Assembly: GCA_007129945.1 (NCBI GenBank)
Contig: SKUN01000056.1
Span: 1-36,333 of the forward strand
Direction of reading: 5' to 3'
DNA from: Bacteroidales bacterium
GTDB lineage: Bacteria > Bacteroidota > Bacteroidia > Bacteroidales > UBA7960
Length of the DNA: 36,333 bases
Shown here: one piece after another, positions 1 to 12,308 of the stretch
Position numbering within the stretch: the stretch's first letter is position 1
Layout of the letters: each line of letters starts with the position of its first letter
Made by a program: the position numbers and the translations under genes
The notes under the pieces: model-generated
The model's input: the letters and a program-made list of their open reading frames with translations, nothing else
The model's database searches: none
What the model was told of the DNA's origin: nothing

Positions 1-1527
<1,527 letters not shown>

Positions 1528-1580: not shown

Positions 1581-3368
1581 TTAGAAGGCGTATGAAATGC
1601 CTCCCAGCAGGCTGAAACCCTGGGTGGGATAATCCATCCATCTTTCATAGGATTCGTTCTGCACATTGTACAGGTTCAGGAAAACGGAAAGATTCCTGGT
1701 ATACCGGTATTCAACTCCCAGGCTTGCATCTATATAGAAATCCTGAATCTTATGGGTATGCTGTGAATAGGACGTTTCAGCAGGGATCCAGGTGGAGGAG
1801 CTCATGTCGGGGTAATGCCGTGAGATCCCCCAGGTTTCATCACGGCCGGTCAGCGCTGCGGTAAAAATGACTTTATTCCGGAAGCTGTATTCCATGTCAA
1901 GGGATAGCAGGAGATCGGGCTGATGAGGCACAAAAGGCAACTCATCGGTACTGATGTCAAAATAATCACCCCGCAGCCTCAGGGAGAACTGCTGCCCGAA
2001 ACGGGTAAACAACTCACCACTTAGCTGAAGTTTACGGATGTCGTCATATAATACCGCAAACTGCTGGTTGGCAATGGGGTAGTAATTTTCCTCTGCCTCA
2101 CCTGTCAGGATGAAATACTGGCGTCCGAACATGGAATAGTTGTCGATCCGGCTATCTTTCACCGAAAAATTATATGACAGCCTGTCACCGAAAGAACCCC
2201 TGATCCCTCCGCCTATGGCATGCCTGGTGTCGCTGAACTGCATCAGTGGAACTGATTCAACAAACGGGTTTTCTGCCGAAAGCTTTCGCCATGATTGCCG
2301 CTGCATGCCACCCGAAAGTTGCATATAGGCTACCAGGCTGTTGCGTATAATATTCACCTCCAACCCGGCGAGCGGATAAGCATTTAACTGATGATCCCCG
2401 TCCGATCCGTCCACACTCATGTTTACGCCAATGTGAAACTGCAAATTGTCCAGGTAGGAGTGGAGGGTGGGTTTCAGGGTGTAGAGGGCCGATGCTGTTG
2501 TGTCGGCAGGGTCGCTGTTGTGATAGTAATCGGCCGATACATCCACCGCCAGGTATTGCCTGCGGGCAATACCGAAGGGGTCGGCCCCGATTTCGCTGCC
2601 GATGTTGCCATCCATGCTGAGGTGGTGCTCCGTACCATCATATCTGTCGCTGAGCCAGTGGTGTCCGGCTTCAATCCTGTATCCCAGGCGGGATGAGTCG
2701 GTATGATGAGTGCCGAATCCGAGCTGTGAAGACAGGAAATCGTATCGCTGGCGGAGGTCGCCGGCACCCGGTAAGAGGGTGTCCGGGGGCAGGAAGGTGG
2801 CAGCATAGGTTGAGGGGAATCCATAGTAATGGACCATATGCCTGTTGAACTTTACATCAGCGTTCAGGGCTGTGCGGTCAAAAAAGCGGGTACCGTAGAC
2901 ATTTGCCAGGCTATGGCTGTAGGTGCTGTGCGGATGATCGTCAATTTCCTCGCCGGAAGAACGGTGCTTCAGGTGCAGCCCCAGGGCATAGCTGTCTGAT
3001 TGCAGTGAGTTGTAGAAGCCTTCAAAATAGGGTGTCTGATAACTGCCGTATCCTCCCCTGACCAGTCCACGGCTTAGCTGCCGGGGAGGTTCTGAACGCA
3101 TCCGCGCAGGGGTCAGCGGCCCGGGCCGGAGGTGTGTGACCAGTTTCAGCGGCCGGAGCCTGTAATCGAAATCCATGGCCACGGTCACCGTGTCCCGGAT
3201 GACCGGGTTAATATTGATCTTAAAGGCATCTGAAATGCTTGGCTCATAAGGAGCCACTACCTGTATCTCATCAATATCCCTGATTTGCTGCCCATAAAGG
3301 GTGTTTGCCCCAAGAATCAGGGTGAACATCCATATGCCGGCGGCCTTGAACAAATTTTTGTCAGTCAT
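1581..3368 (-). CDS. Outer-membrane beta-barrel protein, TonB-receptor-like, no plug domain
   Basis: A 595-residue protein with a signal peptide (about residues 1-27, ending LYGQQ). A short N-terminal stretch contains IDEIQVVAPYEPSISDAF. The rest is amphipathic, aromatic-rich beta strands ending in Phe (GGISYAF), the usual C-terminal signature of outer-membrane barrels. Such proteins are often labelled TonB-dependent receptor, but I see no plug domain and it is shorter than true receptors. It starts 49 bases after the large TPR gene on the same strand, so the two are probably co-transcribed and may work together at the outer membrane. Function is unknown; transport, assembly or scaffolding are all possible. 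The family resemblance is from memory of similar Bacteroidota sequences, not from a search. Confidence 0.8.
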   Translation of the reverse strand: MTDKNLFKAAGIWMFTLILGANTLYGQQIRDIDEIQVVAPYEPSISDAFKININPVIRDTVTVAMDFDYRLRPLKLVTHLRPGPLTPARMRSEPPRQLSRGLVRGGYGSYQTPYFEGFYNSLQSDSYALGLHLKHRSSGEEIDDHPHSTYSHSLANVYGTRFFDRTALNADVKFNRHMVHYYGFPSTYAATFLPPDTLLPGAGDLRQRYDFLSSQLGFGTHHTDSSRLGYRIEAGHHWLSDRYDGTEHHLSMDGNIGSEIGADPFGIARRQYLAVDVSADYYHNSDPADTTASALYTLKPTLHSYLDNLQFHIGVNMSVDGSDGDHQLNAYPLAGLEVNIIRNSLVAYMQLSGGMQRQSWRKLSAENPFVESVPLMQFSDTRHAIGGGIRGSFGDRLSYNFSVKDSRIDNYSMFGRQYFILTGEAEENYYPIANQQFAVLYDDIRKLQLSGELFTRFGQQFSLRLRGDYFDISTDELPFVPHQPDLLLSLDMEYSFRNKVIFTAALTGRDETWGISRHYPDMSSSTWIPAETSYSQHTHKIQDFYIDASLGVEYRYTRNLSVFLNLYNVQNESYERWMDYPTQGFSLLGGISYAF

Positions 3369-3417
3369 ATCTTGTGTGATTGTCTTTCAGTGAATGAACT
3401 TGGTTCTCTTACAGGAT

Positions 3418-6400
3418 TCAGTTATCCGGATTATCAGATCCGGGTTCCGCTGATTGCTGCTCCTGCTGCCGGACAAAATTCAGCCTGCTGCGGGCCTCTT
3501 CGAGGATCTCCCGGCCGTCGTAATTCTCAATAAGGCTCTCCAGTGTTGCCCTGGCCTGGAAGGTGTTTTCAGTTTCGATATACACATCCGCAAGCAACAA
3601 AAAAGTTCTGGCCAGCCAATCGTCATAGGCTGACATCTGATTGCTGTATTCAAAGATCTGTTCCTCGGCTTTTTCGTAATCACCTTCCCTGAATGTGATC
3701 AGCGCAAGGTGATACATGGCTTCAGCCGAACGTCTGTTGGTGGTGATTTCCTTTACCCTCTCCAGGGCGGTAACGGCCACCGCATTGTTGCCGGTTTCCA
3801 TGGCGGACAAGCCCCTTACCAGGTAGGCCTCCTGCTGTGCGTCCTGGTCGGCCCGGTCTGAATCGATTACGCGGAGGGCTGCTTCCTGGGCGGCATCATA
3901 CTGTTCAAGCCTGTAAAGGCAGCGCATTGTCCCCTTTCTTGCAACCAGCAGGTTGTTCCGGTTTTCGGCCACCTCTTCAAGTTCAGAAAAGTGAGACAGG
4001 GCGGTTTCGTAATGGCCTGCATTGTACTGGATGGCAGACGCTCTCAGAAGGGCGTTTTCCCTGAATTGGGAACGTGGCCGTTCAATGACGTATTGGTATC
4101 CTGCCAATGCCCGCTGTTGCTGGTTGGTGCGGTAATAGCATTCCGAGCGGTAGAAGTTTGCATGGGCGGCAAAGATCCCGTCCGGGAAACGGTCGAGGTA
4201 TCCGGAGAAACTCTGGATCGCTTCGTTGCAATCCCCCTGCATGTAGCGGTTTTCCGCGGCCTGGTAAGTCAGGGAGTCTTGCTGTGCAGCCGTGATGTCA
4301 GCCATCCCCCGGCTCTCTGAAAACCGCACAAATTCATCCACCCTGTCCAGATCTACATAGATATTGCGCATGGCCATCAGGGCTTCCCGGGCCTGGGTGG
4401 TGCCCTGGTATTTTTCGATGACCTGACGAAACATGTCAAGGGCCTCCTCGTCTTCGTTATTGTTGTAGTGAATAAGGCCTGTCTTCAGCATGGCACTTTG
4501 CACATAGGCACTGTTTGGGTGCTGACTGATTACCTGTGAAAAATAGTCTTTTGCCCGGCTGCTGTTGCTCAGCAGTAGCCAGGTGTTTGCGATTTCGTAT
4601 TTCCCGTCATCCAGGAATGAAGACCGGGGGTGGTTGCTGATCAGTTCCTGCATGGTACTGATCTTTTGCTCATAATTACCCAAAATGCCTTCCACGAGTC
4701 CTTTCTGGAATACGGCATAATCCGTATCGATCACGTCCATGCTGATGGCTCGCTGATACCAGTTCAGGGCCGGCTGGTATTGTTTGCTCATGAAGTAAGC
4801 ATCCGCGGTTCTCAGGGTGGCGTCGTTTACCATCCGGGCATCATCGCTGGTTTCACTGATGTAATTTCTGAACGGGGAGATGGCCTGGCTGTACCTGCCC
4901 AGCTTGAAATGGGCATAACCGAGGCTGTAGTGGGCACGGTTGAAGTAATCCAGCGAGAAGGCCCCCGGGGTAACGAGAAACTCTTCATGGGCCCGGATGC
5001 TTGCCGCATACTCCTCTATCCTGTAATACGCTTCGCCCTGCCAGTAAAAGCTGGCTGCGGCAAGTTCCCGGTTTTCAGTAAAACGCCGGGTTCGTGAAAA
5101 CAGGTCTATGGCATTCCGGAAGTCCCCGTTGTTGAACAGTTCCACACCCCTGTAATAAGTGACGCGCTGATAGGCCTCCCTGAGTCTTGGGGTATCCAGA
5201 GAGGTGTTTTCCAGTGAGCTGAGTGCATCTGAATAATTATTGGTGGTCAGATAGAGGTCCACCAGGTAGCCGTAAGCTTCTTCTGTTCTGGGTGAATCGG
5301 GGTATTCCCTGATATATTTCTGAAACGACAGGATGGCCTCATTGTAGGGGTCGTAGGCCATTTCGAATGACAGTAGGGCGTAGTGAAAGAGTGCTTCTCT
5401 GGCGATGTCTTCGTGGAACCCGAGTTCATGTGCCTGCGTGAAGGCATTCCGGGCATAACGCTGCTGACCGGCCTCTATATAGCAGGAAGCAAGATGGTAA
5501 TAAGCATTTTGTGCCAGGGCATCCTGCTCCCCGGCGGCCTGCTCCAGGTGCGGGATAGCTTCCTCATAACGACCTGAAATATAATAGGAAAAGCCCAGAT
5601 GGTAGTGATCCTCCCTGCTGCTCTCTGTTCGGGAGGCTTTTATAAAGGTCTCCAGGTGCGGGATGGCTTCCGTGTAGTCTGAACGGTGAAAATAAGCACT
5701 TCCGATCAGTCTTGATATTTCCGGAACCTGTTGCGGAGGAGCTTCCTCAAGCAACGGGGGAGCGTATTCAATGAGGGCATCGTATCGCTCCTGCATATAA
5801 AAGATGTGTGCAATATAAAACGGGACTACATCACCGTACTGCCGATCATTCTCCAGTGTCCTGAAGGCCCGCATGGCTGCATCATAGTCGCTGTTCAGGT
5901 AGTCGATATGACCACTGTAATAGGTGGCCGGGGTATGGTATCCGGAAGAGGGATCGGTGATTTGGTTGAACAGCCGCTGAGCCGTAGCATGGGAATCTGT
6001 CATGAAATGGCTGTAGCCTTTTTTAAACAGAAACTCATTGCGTCTTTCCCTTTCCATATCCTGAACGTTCAGCCGGTTGTACCATCTGACCGACTGCCGG
6101 TAGCTCCTTTCCTTATATTTCAGATTTCCCATCTGAAACCAGGCCAGTTTTTGTCCGGCATGGGTCGGATGTTTGTCCAGGAAGGTAAGCAGCAGTTTTT
6201 CGGCATCGGGGTTGTCCAGTTCCGCAGCACATAATGCAGAATAGAGCGTAGCGCTTGCCCGGATTTCGCTCTGCGGATCATCAATCTGCCGGATGGTCTG
6301 CAGAAACAACTGCCTGGCTGCTCCGTATTTTTCATTGCTGAACAATGCCCTTGCCTCCCGGTAAGTGGCCTCGGGTTCGTCATGGGCGGCTGTTTGCTGG

Positions 6401-6468
6401 CCGGCGGCCTGTTGCGTTATGAGCAATGTCGTCAGCAATATCAGCAGGAAAGAGAACTTTTTCGTCAT
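3418..6468 (-). CDS. Large periplasmic tetratricopeptide-repeat protein
   Basis: A 1016-residue protein with a signal peptide (about residues 1-24, a hydrophobic LLILLTTLLI core ending AAGQQ), followed almost entirely by TPR-like helical pairs. Repeated signatures include YHLGFSYYISGRYEEAI, AYYHLASCYIEAGQQ and FWQGEAYYRIEEYAASI-like units at about 34-residue spacing from residue 30 to 1000. The C-terminal tail is rich in Q, E and D. This kind of array resembles periplasmic scaffolds such as BamD/YbgF, only much longer. It lies between rnpB and the barrel gene, with only 36 bases after rnpB and no recognisable -7 box there, so its transcription start is unclear. The role is inferred to be protein-protein scaffolding in the periplasm with the downstream barrel protein; no enzyme motif is seen. 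Confidence 0.85.
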   Translation of the reverse strand: MTKKFSFLLILLTTLLITQQAAGQQTAAHDEPEATYREARALFSNEKYGAARQLFLQTIRQIDDPQSEIRASATLYSALCAAELDNPDAEKLLLTFLDKHPTHAGQKLAWFQMGNLKYKERSYRQSVRWYNRLNVQDMERERRNEFLFKKGYSHFMTDSHATAQRLFNQITDPSSGYHTPATYYSGHIDYLNSDYDAAMRAFRTLENDRQYGDVVPFYIAHIFYMQERYDALIEYAPPLLEEAPPQQVPEISRLIGSAYFHRSDYTEAIPHLETFIKASRTESSREDHYHLGFSYYISGRYEEAIPHLEQAAGEQDALAQNAYYHLASCYIEAGQQRYARNAFTQAHELGFHEDIAREALFHYALLSFEMAYDPYNEAILSFQKYIREYPDSPRTEEAYGYLVDLYLTTNNYSDALSSLENTSLDTPRLREAYQRVTYYRGVELFNNGDFRNAIDLFSRTRRFTENRELAAASFYWQGEAYYRIEEYAASIRAHEEFLVTPGAFSLDYFNRAHYSLGYAHFKLGRYSQAISPFRNYISETSDDARMVNDATLRTADAYFMSKQYQPALNWYQRAISMDVIDTDYAVFQKGLVEGILGNYEQKISTMQELISNHPRSSFLDDGKYEIANTWLLLSNSSRAKDYFSQVISQHPNSAYVQSAMLKTGLIHYNNNEDEEALDMFRQVIEKYQGTTQAREALMAMRNIYVDLDRVDEFVRFSESRGMADITAAQQDSLTYQAAENRYMQGDCNEAIQSFSGYLDRFPDGIFAAHANFYRSECYYRTNQQQRALAGYQYVIERPRSQFRENALLRASAIQYNAGHYETALSHFSELEEVAENRNNLLVARKGTMRCLYRLEQYDAAQEAALRVIDSDRADQDAQQEAYLVRGLSAMETGNNAVAVTALERVKEITTNRRSAEAMYHLALITFREGDYEKAEEQIFEYSNQMSAYDDWLARTFLLLADVYIETENTFQARATLESLIENYDGREILEEARSRLNFVRQQEQQSAEPGSDNPDN

Positions 6469-6504
6469 TTTATTTCAGCTATTAGATCATCAATTCATTA
6501 AAAG

Positions 6505-6885
6505 AAAAAGGCAGGCCTGTAAGCCGGGTTCTGTTGCATGCCAGGGGCATGCCTCCTGTCATTTGTCTTGGGCAGTGCTCACGCAATGCCTCCAACGGCC
6601 TACCCTCCGGGATCGGGCGAGCAACCCTCAAACCCCGGTATATTTGGCCTTTCAACGCATAAGGTTTGCCCCCCTGTCCGGTCACCCGGACAGGGCGTGA
6701 GCCCTTACCTCACGTTTTCACCCTTACCTGCCCGGCATAAGCCTGAGGCAGGCGGTTGTTTTCTGTGGCACTTGCTCTCAGCCTGCAAATGCAGACCGGC
6801 TTCCCGTTAGGAAGTATGCTGCTCTGTGTTGCCCGGACTTTCCTCCTCCCGCTGAACGGGAAGCGACAGGACGGCCTGCCTTTTT
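6505..6885 (-). ncRNA. rnpB: RNase P RNA, bacterial class A
   Basis: Catalytic RNA that trims 5' leaders from tRNA precursors. Read on the minus strand it has the conserved GAGGAAAGTCCGGGC block near the 5' end, GGTAAGGGTGAAAACGTG and GGTAAGGGCTCACG in the middle, and AACAGAACCCGGCTTACAG near the 3' end. The two ends form a perfect 13-bp P1 helix (6873-6885 with 6505-6517), which sets the boundaries at about 381 nt. The U-run of the 3' strand of P1 could also help end transcription. It starts 10 bases after the stop of the upstream Smr gene, so its promoter must lie in that gene's coding end or the RNA is cut from a longer transcript. Together with its short flanks it fills the 6469-6895 gap. 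Confidence 0.96.
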
Positions 6886-8176: not shown

Positions 8177-8250
8177 ACTGAAGCAGCAAACCGTTTTACG
8201 GAAGCTTGTGAGAATTTTTGCCCAACAGCCCCAAAGCCACGGTCAGCGCA

Positions 8251-9732
8251 ATGCAGGGAAAATTTGTAAAAAACCTTACACTCTTGCTGGTGCTTAACCT
8301 CCTGGTTAAGCCTTTCTGGATCCTCGGTATTGACCGCTCAGTTCAAAATACCGTAGGAGCAGAGGAGTATGGTTTTTATTTTGCGGTGTTCAACTTGTCG
8401 TTTTTATTCAACGTCCTTCTTGACTTCGTGATTACCAATTTCAATAACCGGAATATTGCACAGAACAACCAATTGCTCACCAAGCACCTTTCGAACCTGC
8501 TTGTGGTGAAGCTTATGTTTTTCTTTGGCTACCTGATAATCACCTTTGGCACTGCCTTATTTATCCAATACAGCCAGGAACAGATCCGGCTGTTGTATTT
8601 TCTTGCCATCAACCAGTTTTTGCTTAGCTTCATCCTCTACCTGCGCTCGAACCTGGGTGGTCTTCATCTGTTCCGGACCGACAGTATGATCTCAGTGCTG
8701 GACAGGACGCTGATGATCGTGATCTGTGCCATTCTTCTGTGGGGCAATGTGGTCAATGAGTTTCGCATTGAATATTATGTGTATGCACAAACGGGCGGGT
8801 ATCTGCTCACGGCCGTCACTGCATTGTGGCTTGTGCTGCGGAGGACAGAAAGGAAGTGGCTCAGGCTGAGCTGGAATTTCCCCTTTTTACTTGCCATTGT
8901 CAGGCAAAGTTTTCCTTTTGCCATACTGGTATTGCTGATGACTTTTTATAATCGCATTGACAGTGTGATGCTGGAACGTTTGCTGGATGATGGTGCCCGG
9001 TACAGCGGTATTTATGCCTCGGCCTACCGTTTGCTGGATGCCGCAAACATGATCGCTTACCTGTTTGCCGTGTTGCTGCTTCCGATCTTTGCCAGGATGA
9101 TCAAGCAAAAGCAATGTGTGGAACAGTTGATCCGCCTGTCATATACCCTGATCACTGTGCCTGCCGTTGTGATTGCGGTGGCTGCTTTTTTCCATGCCGG
9201 TGAGATCATGGAATTTCTTTATCCGGTCCATGCTGTGGAAACAGAGGCTGCATTTCTTTATCGCATAGAGGAGTCTGCCAGGGTATTCGCGATTCTGATG
9301 GCTTGTTTTCTGGCGACATCGACCACTTATATCTTTGGTACTCTGTTGACTGCCAATGGTAGTCTGCGAAATATGAACCTGATAGCTTTCGGGGGGATGC
9401 TGCTGAATATTGTGCTGAATCTTCTGATGATCCCGGTTTACCAGGCAACGGGGTCCGCCATAGCCAGTCTGTTTACGCAGATTCTGGTGGCACTGCTGCA
9501 GGTATGGGTGGTTAAGCGTCTGTTTGGCCTGGGTGCCAATTATTCTTTCCTTTCCCGCCTGGTGATCTATGCAGCAGGTGTGCTTTCCATCGGATTTGTA
9601 TCAGGTTTTGCCTCTTTTTCCTGGCAGATCAATATAATGATCTTGGGCGTTGGTTCGCTGGCGCTGGCATTGGCGGTAAAACTCATCAGCCTGAGGCACA
9701 TCTACCAGCTGATCCGGTTCAGGGAGGGGTAA
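8251..9732 (+). CDS. Polysaccharide flippase (MOP/Wzx-like)
   Basis: A 493-residue integral membrane protein with about 12-14 hydrophobic segments. It resembles oligosaccharide-lipid flippases (Wzx/RfbX type of the MOP superfamily), which move lipid-linked sugar units across the inner membrane. Family-like features are the N-terminal NLLVKPFWILGIDRSVQN segment, FNNRNIAQNN between the first helices, and the paired YNRIDSVML segment in the middle. The frame is open back to a TTG at 8218, but the ATG at 8251 gives the N terminus expected for the family and leaves a 70-base leader after the -7 box at 8169. A Wzz-like and a Wzy-like gene follow, which fits export and polymerisation of a surface glycan. 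No glycosyltransferase lies next to it. Confidence 0.88.
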   Translation: MQGKFVKNLTLLLVLNLLVKPFWILGIDRSVQNTVGAEEYGFYFAVFNLSFLFNVLLDFVITNFNNRNIAQNNQLLTKHLSNLLVVKLMFFFGYLIITFGTALFIQYSQEQIRLLYFLAINQFLLSFILYLRSNLGGLHLFRTDSMISVLDRTLMIVICAILLWGNVVNEFRIEYYVYAQTGGYLLTAVTALWLVLRRTERKWLRLSWNFPFLLAIVRQSFPFAILVLLMTFYNRIDSVMLERLLDDGARYSGIYASAYRLLDAANMIAYLFAVLLLPIFARMIKQKQCVEQLIRLSYTLITVPAVVIAVAAFFHAGEIMEFLYPVHAVETEAAFLYRIEESARVFAILMACFLATSTTYIFGTLLTANGSLRNMNLIAFGGMLLNIVLNLLMIPVYQATGSAIASLFTQILVALLQVWVVKRLFGLGANYSFLSRLVIYAAGVLSIGFVSGFASFSWQINIMILGVGSLALALAVKLISLRHIYQLIRFREG

Positions 9733-9759
9733 TTGTCGTATGTTTTTTCCTTAATTTTG
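9733..9759 (+). promoter_or_regulatory. Candidate promoter of the Wzz-like gene
   Basis: TTG at 9733-9735, then 16 bases, then TAATTTTG at 9752-9759. It would start transcription near 9764, with a leader of about 66 bases. It sits directly after the flippase stop codon, so the downstream pair may be made independently of the flippase. Confidence 0.5.
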
Positions 9760-9829
9760 CCGCAACGCTTCAAATAACAGGATAAACAGTTCGTTACAGA
9801 ATAACAAACAAGTTCAAACCACATACAAC

Positions 9830-10876
9830 ATGGATCCTAAAAACAATGTCTTTGATTCTTCCAACGTATTTTTGTTTATCATTCGCTGGTGGAAGCATTT
9901 GTTTATTATTTGCCTGGTAGCAGCCATTGCAGCCGCCATCTTTTCCGCACCATTTTTTATTACACCGAAATTTCAGTCGTCGGTCATCATGTTTCCGACC
10001 ACTTCGGGCAGTCTTTCGCGGACGGTACTGGTGGGGGCCGAATGGGCACGCCAGGATTTCCTTGATTACGGAGAGGTGGAGGAGGCGGAAAGAACCCTTC
10101 AGGTGCTGGAGTCAGGCAATGTGCGGGATCGCATCATTGAACGTTTTAACCTGATGTCTCATTATGAGATCCCTGAAGATGCCCGGTATCCCCGGTCGCA
10201 GATCACAGAAGAGTATAACAGCAATATTTCATTCCGTCGTACCCAGTACGGAGCGGTGGAGATCAGTGTGCGTGACAAGGACCCGGCCATGGCTGCCGAT
10301 ATAGCCAATGAGCTTGCAGCCCTGGGTGATACGGTCCAGAATGAGCTGCGCAGGGAAAGGGCAGAGCTTGCCTATGAGGTGGCCAAAGGACAGTACGAGA
10401 ACCTCCAGGCACAGGTCAAAGAAGTGGAGGATTCCCTGCGAAACATTATGGAACTGGGGGTTTATGATCTGGAGGGGCAGTCGGCGATGCTTACACGTCA
10501 GCTTGCTCAAGACCTTTCGGCAGATAATCAGGCGGGTGTAAGCCGGCTGGAGGACCGGTTACGGTTGCTGAGCGAGCATGGAGGGTCATACGTGTTTCAT
10601 ACCGCCTATCTGGATGACATCAGTGACCACCTGATATCAAGCCAGCGGCGATACCAGGAAGCCAGAGCCGACCTGGAAAATTTCGTTCCCTTCAAGTTTG
10701 TGCTCGACCGGGCTTACGAATCTGAACGGAAGGTGTATCCTGTTCGCTGGCTGATTGTATTTTTATCAGTGTTTGCCGCCGGGATTGCGGGGGTCATGAT
10801 CCTGATGCTATATGAGAACCTGCGCAACAAAGACATCATAAAGGAAAAGAAAGCAAAAAACCTAAAAACTTCTTAG
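9830..10876 (+). CDS. Wzz-type chain-length determinant protein
   Basis: A 348-residue inner-membrane protein. It has the Wzz topology: a cytoplasmic start, TM1 at about 22-41, a large periplasmic region with coiled-coil helices (about 160-300), TM2 at about 306-328, and a basic cytoplasmic tail. TM1 is followed by a PKFQSSVIMFPTTSG-like stretch, the expected start of the Wzz domain. There is no fused tyrosine kinase after TM2, so this is the separate, kinase-free type. In this family the protein controls the length of the sugar polymer made by Wzy. The next gene starts 4 bases after its stop, so the two are tightly coupled. Confidence 0.88.
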   Translation: MDPKNNVFDSSNVFLFIIRWWKHLFIICLVAAIAAAIFSAPFFITPKFQSSVIMFPTTSGSLSRTVLVGAEWARQDFLDYGEVEEAERTLQVLESGNVRDRIIERFNLMSHYEIPEDARYPRSQITEEYNSNISFRRTQYGAVEISVRDKDPAMAADIANELAALGDTVQNELRRERAELAYEVAKGQYENLQAQVKEVEDSLRNIMELGVYDLEGQSAMLTRQLAQDLSADNQAGVSRLEDRLRLLSEHGGSYVFHTAYLDDISDHLISSQRRYQEARADLENFVPFKFVLDRAYESERKVYPVRWLIVFLSVFAAGIAGVMILMLYENLRNKDIIKEKKAKNLKTS

Positions 10877-10880
10877 CCGG

Positions 10881-12308
10881 GTGTTGAAAGAAAGCAGGCT
10901 TCAGTGGCTCTACGGGGGCAGCCTTGTGTTTGTTGCCCTGAACATGGTGATGATGGTTCAGGGAATTTACTGGCTGTCTGCACTTCCTTTTGCACTCGGC
11001 GTGATGCTGTTGTTGTTCTTTTCCCTGGATAAACTGATCCTGTTGCTTGTTTTTCTGACGCCCTTTTCGTTTAAGTACATTCATGAAGAGCTCGGGTTTA
11101 CAATGGATATTCCCACAGAGCCTGTTATCGTGGCCATCATGCTGCTTTTCTTTGTGAGGCTGCTATATGAGGGAGGTTATGACAAACGGGTATTGCGTCA
11201 TCCGGTGACGATGATTCTGATCATACAATTATTGTGGATGTTCATAACTACCGTCACCAGTGAAATGCCAATGGTGTCATTTAAATTCTTTATTTCCCGT
11301 CTTTGGTTTGTGACAACTTTCTTCTTTCTTGGTGTGTATTTGTTTCGCGAGCGGATAAATATGCACCGCTTCATGTGGCTGTTCGGATCGGCGCTGGCCA
11401 TTGTGGTGGTAATGTCGACTTATAACCACTATCTTCACGGGTTTGAGCGGGAGGTGGGATATGCGATGGTCCGGCCGTTTTTCAATGACCACACCCATTA
11501 CGGGGCTGTATTGGCCCTGGTGGCGCCTTTTTTTGTTGTGATGGCCTTCAACCGCAATGGTAGCGTGCTGCGCAGGCGGCTTGCCATGATGGTGTTTTTC
11601 TTGTTTTGTGCGGGCATTTTATTCAGTTATAGCCGTGCCTCCTGGCTGAGCCTGATTGTGGCAGCCGGTGGGTTTGTGATTCTGGTTTTTCGTCTGAAGT
11701 TTCGCTTTATTCTTGCCGGGCTGATTCTTTTGCTGGGTGTCTTTGCCCTGTACCAAACGGAGATTGTGATGCGCCTGGAACGCAATCAGCAGGAGTCGTC
11801 CGGTGATTTTTCCGAGCATGTGCAATCCATCACCAACATCACCTCGGACGCCTCCAACCTGGAGCGGATCAACCGCTGGAGGTCCGCCTACCGCATGTAT
11901 GAGGAAAGACCGGTATTTGGCTGGGGACCGGGTACCTATCAGTTTGTGTATGCGCCTTTTCAGCGATCGGAGGATTACACCATTATCACCACCCATTTTG
12001 GTGACCTCGGGAATGCCCACAGTGAATATATCGGTCCGCTTTCTGAGAGCGGGCTCCCCGGAATGCTTTCCTTTATCGCCCTGGCCCTGGCGGTGCTGGC
12101 TACAGGGGTGAAATTGTATAAGAAAGCAACTGACAGGGAAATGCGCCTTATTGCCCTGGGCTTAACCCTGGGCTTCATCACTTATCTGACGCACGGGCTG
12201 TTGAATAACTTTTTAGATACAGATAAGGCTTCAGTACCCTTTTGGGGAATGATGGCCATTCTGGTTGCCATGGATGTGTTTTACTCCAAACGGGAACAAA
12301 GGGCCTGA
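10881..12308 (+). CDS. O-antigen polymerase / ligase family protein (Wzy/WaaL-like)
   Basis: A 475-residue membrane protein with about 10-12 helices, resembling the O-antigen ligase/polymerase superfamily. The large periplasmic loop (about 300-395) follows SYSRASWLSLIVA and contains RINRWRSAYRMYEERPVFGWGPGTY and NAHSEYIGPLSESGLPGML; the GxGPG-like and HSEY motifs are typical of this loop. The start is probably the GTG at 10881, 4 bases after the wzz stop; no ATG lies near the N terminus before residue 20. The product could polymerise repeat units (Wzy) or join polymer to a lipid (WaaL); sequence alone does not decide. The flippase and Wzz next to it favour a polymerase. Confidence 0.85.
   Translation: MLKESRLQWLYGGSLVFVALNMVMMVQGIYWLSALPFALGVMLLLFFSLDKLILLLVFLTPFSFKYIHEELGFTMDIPTEPVIVAIMLLFFVRLLYEGGYDKRVLRHPVTMILIIQLLWMFITTVTSEMPMVSFKFFISRLWFVTTFFFLGVYLFRERINMHRFMWLFGSALAIVVVMSTYNHYLHGFEREVGYAMVRPFFNDHTHYGAVLALVAPFFVVMAFNRNGSVLRRRLAMMVFFLFCAGILFSYSRASWLSLIVAAGGFVILVFRLKFRFILAGLILLLGVFALYQTEIVMRLERNQQESSGDFSEHVQSITNITSDASNLERINRWRSAYRMYEERPVFGWGPGTYQFVYAPFQRSEDYTIITTHFGDLGNAHSEYIGPLSESGLPGMLSFIALALAVLATGVKLYKKATDREMRLIALGLTLGFITYLTHGLLNNFLDTDKASVPFWGMMAILVAMDVFYSKREQRA

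Follow-up and report, generated by a model that had tools for sequence, protein, structure and literature searches.

The stretch of DNA analysed here, hereafter the window, comprises 36,333 nucleotides and is one contig (SKUN01000056.1, assembly GCA_007129945.1) of a 2.4-Mb Bacteroidales draft genome (G000), with Bacteroidales metagenome-assembled genomes as its closest named relatives. On its minus strand lie two genes back to back, of which the first (3418..6468, ATG start, 1016 aa in the list of open reading frames (ORFs)) codes for a protein with tetratricopeptide repeats (TPR) and the second (1581..3368, ATG start, 595 aa), following on the same strand after a gap of 49 bases, for a protein that was recognised as a β-barrel from the ORF list, its predicted fold and alignment A1. 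The original prediction, made from the letters of the DNA only, described the products as an exported TPR array and a plug-less barrel and proposed that they form an outer-membrane complex, perhaps for assembly or surface display. The first part of this description is borne out by the ORFs, the Pfam TPR matches and the export signals at Q24 and Q27. The ORFs are real and not due to chance, as a barrel profile (A6) matched at E<=1e-70 in 72 of the 73 genomes of the own, order and class sets.

The two proteins

The N-terminus of the TPR protein is hydrophobic and followed by Q24, which is invariant in alignments of 35 and 24 rows; that of the barrel is likewise hydrophobic and followed by Q27, invariant in an alignment of 33 rows. 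Both residues conform to the 'Q-rule' for substrates of the Bacteroidetes type I signal peptidase as given in the available text of PMC10653852. The TPR protein matched Pfam TPR_6 at 6.6e-49 together with many other TPR and TPR-like repeat models, and AlphaFold2 predicted a same-genus orthologue as a continuous helical repeat array with a predicted local distance difference test score (pLDDT) of ~94. Most of its non-alanine invariant residues (F533, R553, D556 and Y571), which vary little or not at all across alignments A2 and A7, are found in a central TPR block (residues 514-594; 4687..4929, minus strand). A profile of the protein separated its orthologues of about 1000 aa (575-1168 bits) from the other TPR proteins listed (<=144 bits). 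With regard to CpoB/YbgF, the TPR protein of Tol-Pal, the models gave a mixed picture: TIGR02795 reached 231.5 bits against a cutoff of 90.1, albeit as a sum over nine stretches, and the CpoB model PRK10803 gave 69.9 bits against a cutoff of 383.

A membership of the pair in the type IX secretion system (T9SS) or in the β-barrel assembly machinery (BAM), as an auxiliary part, was considered. Like the pair, SprE/PorW with the SprA translocon ties a long periplasmic TPR protein to an outer-membrane barrel complex, and SprE/PorW is associated with a motor driven by the proton motive force. The TPR model aligned with SprE (8gl8_I) in VIA-align (Z 20.2, 474 residues aligned), though at a root mean square deviation (rmsd) of 22.3, in a match list that consists mostly of generic TPR proteins and does not exclude the families absent from it. 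However, the T9SS barrel is a different one, and by the NCBIfam equivalog NF052312 the TPR protein is not PorW/SprE, its score of 74.3 bits being far below the cutoff of 250. Regarding BAM, and thus the assembly role proposed originally, the subunit lists published for two Bacteroidota BAM purifications name no TPR subunit in the text available, the sequences of those subunits being outside the comparison. Taken together, we regard an auxiliary role in either machinery as very unlikely.

The barrel of the window, which ends in 'SYAF', belongs to no Pfam family, and none of its 27 aligned members matched a plug or TonB-dependent transporter (TBDT) family, DUF560 or an export family in Pfam at E<=0.1. 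An AlphaFold2 model based on 27 homologues (pLDDT 75, predicted template modelling score 0.71) shows residues 20-97 as disordered and the remainder mostly as strands. In VIA-align, residues 98-595 of this model (1584..3077, minus strand) were superimposed on residues 159-714 of FhuA (Z 22.2, rmsd 3.0, 422 aligned) and on residues 135-594 of BtuB (Z 22.1, rmsd 3.4, 387 aligned), both of which stretches begin just after what we take to be the plug boundary of the respective transporter. Foldseek agreed with this fold, with FhuE at 5.8e-17, while the barrel profile found only weak C-terminal TBDT matches among PDB sequences (E 0.03 or worse). Judged by its modelled structure, the barrel is thus a TBDT barrel that has no plug. 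This agrees with the plug-less barrel predicted originally, as do the absence of plug families among the 27 members and a conserved tail of about 70 residues (27-97), predicted to be disordered, which stands where the plug would be.

Inheritance of the two genes and the barrel tail

In order to follow the two genes beyond the window, we collected 83 loci and 31 genomes from the search results, several of them from one family, so that they do not represent independent samples. The TPR gene was found directly upstream of the barrel gene and on the same strand in 80 of the 83 loci; adjacency is therefore the rule in other Bacteroidota genomes and not the rarity that would have spoken against the original prediction. 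At locus L035 from Winogradskyella ludwigii, an ORF of 181 aa lies between the two genes, and this ORF (L035:7330-7872) begins like a lipoprotein. The three non-adjacent loci (L116, L117 and L121, from genomes G129, G066 and G117, respectively) all come from one family outside the class, and in these three genomes and a fourth of the same family (G302), a clear orthologue of the TPR gene lies on a different contig from the barrel gene. At L116, L117 and L121, the barrel gene stays together with genes for a SPOR protein, ExbB, ExbD and a transducer, while the TPR gene is located elsewhere. No fused TPR-barrel gene was present among the barrel matches listed, where the open frames of strong matches measure ~530-690 aa.

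Among the 31 chosen genomes, the TPR protein was present in 11, all of them barrel-positive, and absent from 20, namely 19 without a strong barrel and G045, whose weak barrel match (1.8e-21) makes it the one ambiguous genome. In the surveys for SusD and TolB_N described below, G045 belongs to the 20 genomes scored as barrel-weak, and the barrel-positive genome G061 was outside the TPR check. In the closed genome G309, the pair is gone from between intact neighbours: genes for an HU-CCDC81, a DoxX and a thioesterase-like protein are kept, and at the empty site (L135:10189-11391; compare the family loci L079 and L082) ~120 bases are left between the HU-CCDC81 gene and the DoxX side. G309 lost both genes together. 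Since the genes are adjacent in 80 of 83 loci, are both kept where they are unlinked and are both lost in G309, they belong together: the TPR and barrel genes are partners that are inherited together across Bacteroidota.

Profile A6 found a barrel match at E<=1e-3 in 286 of the 296 genomes of the phylum, many of these being weak C-terminal cross-hits to ordinary TBDTs, and a first search with A1 had yielded 159 of 296, many at the C-terminus only. At E<=1e-40, the barrel was found in 53 of 59 relatives, the exceptions being G011, G034, G039, G040, G365 and G366. The barrel is thus core but dispensable, and near-universal in the class sample.

This distribution bears on the surface display proposed originally, in its general form a flippase by which Bacteroidota would pass lipoproteins through the outer membrane to the cell surface. 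In its favour, the pair occurs almost throughout the class, and the surface-lipoprotein exporter of Bacteroidota is reported as still to be identified in the available text of PMC12578637. However, SusD/RagB proteins are encoded by 10 of the 20 genomes without a strong barrel, including the closed genome G309 with 35 SusD matches and a cleanly empty pair site, and SusD went unmatched in 4 of the 19 barrel-positive genomes. We therefore rejected this general role, which of all explanations considered is the least probable. Of the outer-membrane complex predicted originally, the association of the genes stands, while assembly and surface display are not supported.

A direct interface between the two proteins is suggested by the barrel tail. 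Its sequence reads DEIQVVAPYEPTISDAFKIN in the relatives of the window, VNVIKPYTPTISDAFKI in a named Winogradskyella and ELPDFVITG in some families outside the class. Just past the predicted cleavage at Q27 lies the motif DEIQVVA (residues 33-39; 3252..3272, minus strand), which is conserved in A1 and resembles a TonB box in what we take to be its canonical form; a pattern for this motif, chosen post hoc, matched 62 of 83 tails compared to a mean of 37 and a maximum of 47 for shuffled tails. It is followed by a conserved segment, YEPSISDAFKININPVIRDT (residues 41-60; 3189..3248, minus strand), which we propose to dock in the TPR groove. At locus L050, from the same genus, both genes share a reading frame and are separated by just one stop, and the read-through chain of TPR protein and barrel tail was folded under NCBI table 6. 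Within this chain, only tail residues 41-60 gained confidence, with block means of 62 and 77 compared to 27-44 in the adjoining linker and tail blocks; in the barrel-only model, which derives from a different species and alignment, the same residues had pLDDT values of 42 and 44. The read-through model aligned with the TPR domain of KLC1 carrying a cargo peptide (6swu_F; Z 17.4, rmsd 4.3, 232 aligned), and the alignment extended to model residue 1083, within the tail segment 41-60. The gain in confidence of residues 41-60 in a chain with the TPR protein is suggestive of a docking of this segment in the TPR groove.

In the literature searched, whose coverage did not extend to preprints and most subscription papers, we recognised no description of the pair or of the operon described below. 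The vesicle proteome of T. forsythia, in the available text of PMC4604654, contains a TPR protein of 114.5 kDa (Tanf_06055) and a TonB-linked outer-membrane protein of 68.4 kDa (Tanf_06060), which carry neighbouring locus tags and were both detected. By size and order, albeit without a sequence comparison, these two are probably the pair. Two candidates from P. gingivalis were discarded: TprA (PG1385), whose T. forsythia homologue has 46.5 kDa and is thus another protein than the TPR protein, and PG0448/PG0449, a FadL-type protein of 434 aa and a TPR protein of 441 aa.

Motor, transducer and SPOR genes downstream of the pair

Beyond what had been predicted, a set of ExbB, ExbD, TonB and SPOR genes was found downstream of the pair in other families. 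The 83 loci were searched with local profiles within 4.5 kb of the barrel gene on the same strand; each profile was seeded from 7-13 of these loci, so that the counts arise partly by construction, and loci L052, L054, L059, L061 and L063, with less than 4.5 kb of downstream sequence, were scored as misses. ExbB was found in 29, ExbD in 29, a TonB-like transducer in 34 and SPOR in 29 of the loci, with ExbB, ExbD and the transducer together in 27 and all four in 21. In the mirrored upstream windows and on the opposite strand of the 83 loci, none of the four profiles gave a single match, which argues against the motor, transducer and SPOR genes being chance neighbours. Of the neighbours scanned from far loci, all ten SPOR candidates were confirmed as SPOR by Pfam, and all ten transducers matched TonB_C or TonB_2 (nine of these above a curated cutoff); ExbB, ExbD, HU-CCDC81 and SPOR were also confirmed by Pfam among the neighbours, and in another transducer set two of five matched TIGR02794 tolA_full, at best with 2e-7.

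The own-class families f19, f26 and f27 share the gene order TPR, barrel, HU-CCDC81/SPOR or another protein, ExbB, ExbD and TonB-like transducer. Outside the class, motor genes follow the barrel gene in 12 of 20 far loci. In G043, they do so without the transducer. Loci L115, L118, L126, L131 and L133 carry genes for a SPOR-type protein and a TonB-like transducer after the pair, without ExbB-ExbD there.

These neighbours argue against a tether or scaffold that would connect the outer membrane to peptidoglycan without any energy input, with the motor genes as chance or historical neighbours. Many genomes do keep the pair without adjacent motor genes, and a long TPR rod could presumably bridge the periplasm. 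On the other hand, families from more than one class repeatedly have motor, transducer and SPOR genes in the same orientation as the pair and to one side of it, the mirrored windows being free of them throughout, and the barrel tail retains the TonB-box-like motif. We consider an energy-free tether improbable.

In the window, the genes around the pair are of other kinds. A gyrB gene (1..1503, minus strand; Pfam and NCBIfam), which runs off the window, lies 77 bases downstream of the barrel gene; a gyrB-like gene follows the pair in 16 of 41 loci and represents a lineage-specific neighbour. Between the TPR gene and a smr/DUF2027 gene lies a complete class A RNase P RNA (6504..6882, minus strand; Rfam RF00010, 280.3 bits), and the small ORFs predicted inside it are probably spurious. 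Beyond the smr gene starts a surface polysaccharide cluster (8218-12308, plus strand) with flippase-, Wzz- and O-antigen-ligase-like genes, named by eye from the sequence. Flippase and Wzz genes recur on the strand opposite to the pair in 9 and 8 of 41 loci, respectively, and not more widely, and we discarded an exopolysaccharide exporter role for the pair on these counts. As motor genes are not beside the pair, and the HU-SPOR genes examined in the window's order sit in other contexts, the window carries a stripped version of the locus. In the window's own genome, an HU-CCDC81 protein is encoded beside a kdsB-like gene (L104:1242-2336), away from the pair.

Proposed role of the pair

The co-inheritance and gene order of the pair, its same-strand clustering with motor and SPOR genes, the lost plug and the conserved tail lead us to propose that the two proteins are the outer-membrane half of a dedicated Ton/Tol-type trans-envelope machine of Bacteroidota driven by the proton motive force, to which we assign a probability of roughly 0.55. 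That such a machine exists is well supported; its role in outer-membrane constriction is what we infer. In the proposed mechanism, the plugless TBDT-derived barrel would sit in the outer membrane, with its N-terminal tail of 70 residues reaching into the periplasm and presenting first the TonB-box-like motif and then the TPR-docking segment. To these, the ancestral operon would add ExbB and ExbD as a proton channel, a transducer of the TonB/TolA kind and a SPOR protein, in many cases with an HU/CCDC81 domain at its N-terminus. Powered by ExbB-ExbD, the transducer would contact and pull either the barrel tail or the TPR rod held by it. SPOR domains bind amidase-processed peptidoglycan, as stated in the available text of PMC7822825; by way of the SPOR protein, the machine would be recruited to denuded peptidoglycan at the septum. 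Acting at the septum and transmitting force in this way, the machine would make the outer membrane follow the constricting wall, a Tol-Pal-like job with the barrel in Pal's place. The HU-SPOR protein may, in addition, link the nucleoid to the septum.

In Proteobacteria, Tol-Pal (TolQ-TolR-TolA-TolB-Pal-CpoB) ties outer-membrane constriction to division. The system described here resembles it in that, in part of the phylum, genes for an ExbB/TolQ and ExbD/TolR motor, a TonB/TolA-like transducer, a periplasmic TPR protein and a peptidoglycan-binding partner are clustered. Unlike in Tol-Pal, the outer-membrane part is a TBDT-derived barrel and not the Pal lipoprotein, SPOR takes the place of the OmpA-like domain, the TPR protein has ~1000 aa compared to the 263 positions of the CpoB model, and TolB_N, the N-terminal domain of the TolB propeller protein, was found in just one of 19 barrel-positive genomes. 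With TonB-dependent transporters and their ExbB-ExbD-TonB, the pair shares the barrel fold and the TonB-box-like N-terminal motif, but differs from them by the absent plug, the constant TPR partner and the SPOR neighbour. In the available text of a 2025 survey (PMC12204202), no tol-pal loci are recorded for Bacteroidetes, PorE is proposed as a tether and more outer-membrane-stabilising systems are expected. PorE would fill the same gap and has a CpoB-like TPR part, but according to that text it is a single lipoprotein that combines several domains, Pal-like and TolB-like ones among them, and has no barrel. Whether the plugless TonB-linked barrel, the TPR superhelix, the SPOR/HU protein and a private ExbB-ExbD-TonB motor together form the Tol-Pal counterpart of Bacteroidota, i.e. 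a constriction machine driven by the proton motive force, is a more tentative matter, and we put this identification forward at somewhat less than even odds.

The same motor could alternatively drive secretion, with the barrel as an energised export channel for a protein, lipoprotein or glycan through its open lumen and the TPR protein as the periplasmic substrate receptor. Several exporters combine TPRs with an outer-membrane barrel as the pair does, namely AlgK/AlgE, PgaA, BcsC and Slam (DUF560), and a lumen of TBDT size without a plug could pass large cargo. A TBDT, Oar, is needed for PopC secretion in Myxococcus, as reported in the available text of PMC6434023. Unlike the Slam and AlgK/AlgE types, however, the pair has a TBDT-type barrel, matched neither DUF560 nor an export family, and has no substrate gene or synthase recurring beside it across families. 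The frequent presence of SPOR as an extra partner points to peptidoglycan, and the SusD survey together with G309 disfavours surface lipoproteins as a general substrate. An export channel is, in our view, unlikely.

Several observations weigh against the proposed constriction machine. The system is dispensable, as whole genomes, including a closed one, are without both genes. TolB and the pair do not clearly replace one another, with TolB_N in one of 19 barrel-positive compared to three of 20 barrel-weak genomes. The likeness to a TonB box is based on a pattern chosen post hoc and is less pronounced in some lineages, and the docking rests on the pLDDT of one artificial read-through chain. Neither in the order of the window nor in the families lacking motor neighbours do motor and SPOR genes adjoin the pair, and membership in the machine is, in both of these groups, by descent only.

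Should Tanf_06055 and Tanf_06060 be this pair, their detection would show that both proteins are made. A TBDT barrel reworked without its plug would be a new use of this fold, here in a near-universal gene pair that has its own motor cluster in several lineages. Given that no tol-pal loci are recorded for Bacteroidetes in the available text of PMC12204202, the pair provides concrete candidate genes for a replacement of Tol-Pal in gut and environmental Bacteroidota.

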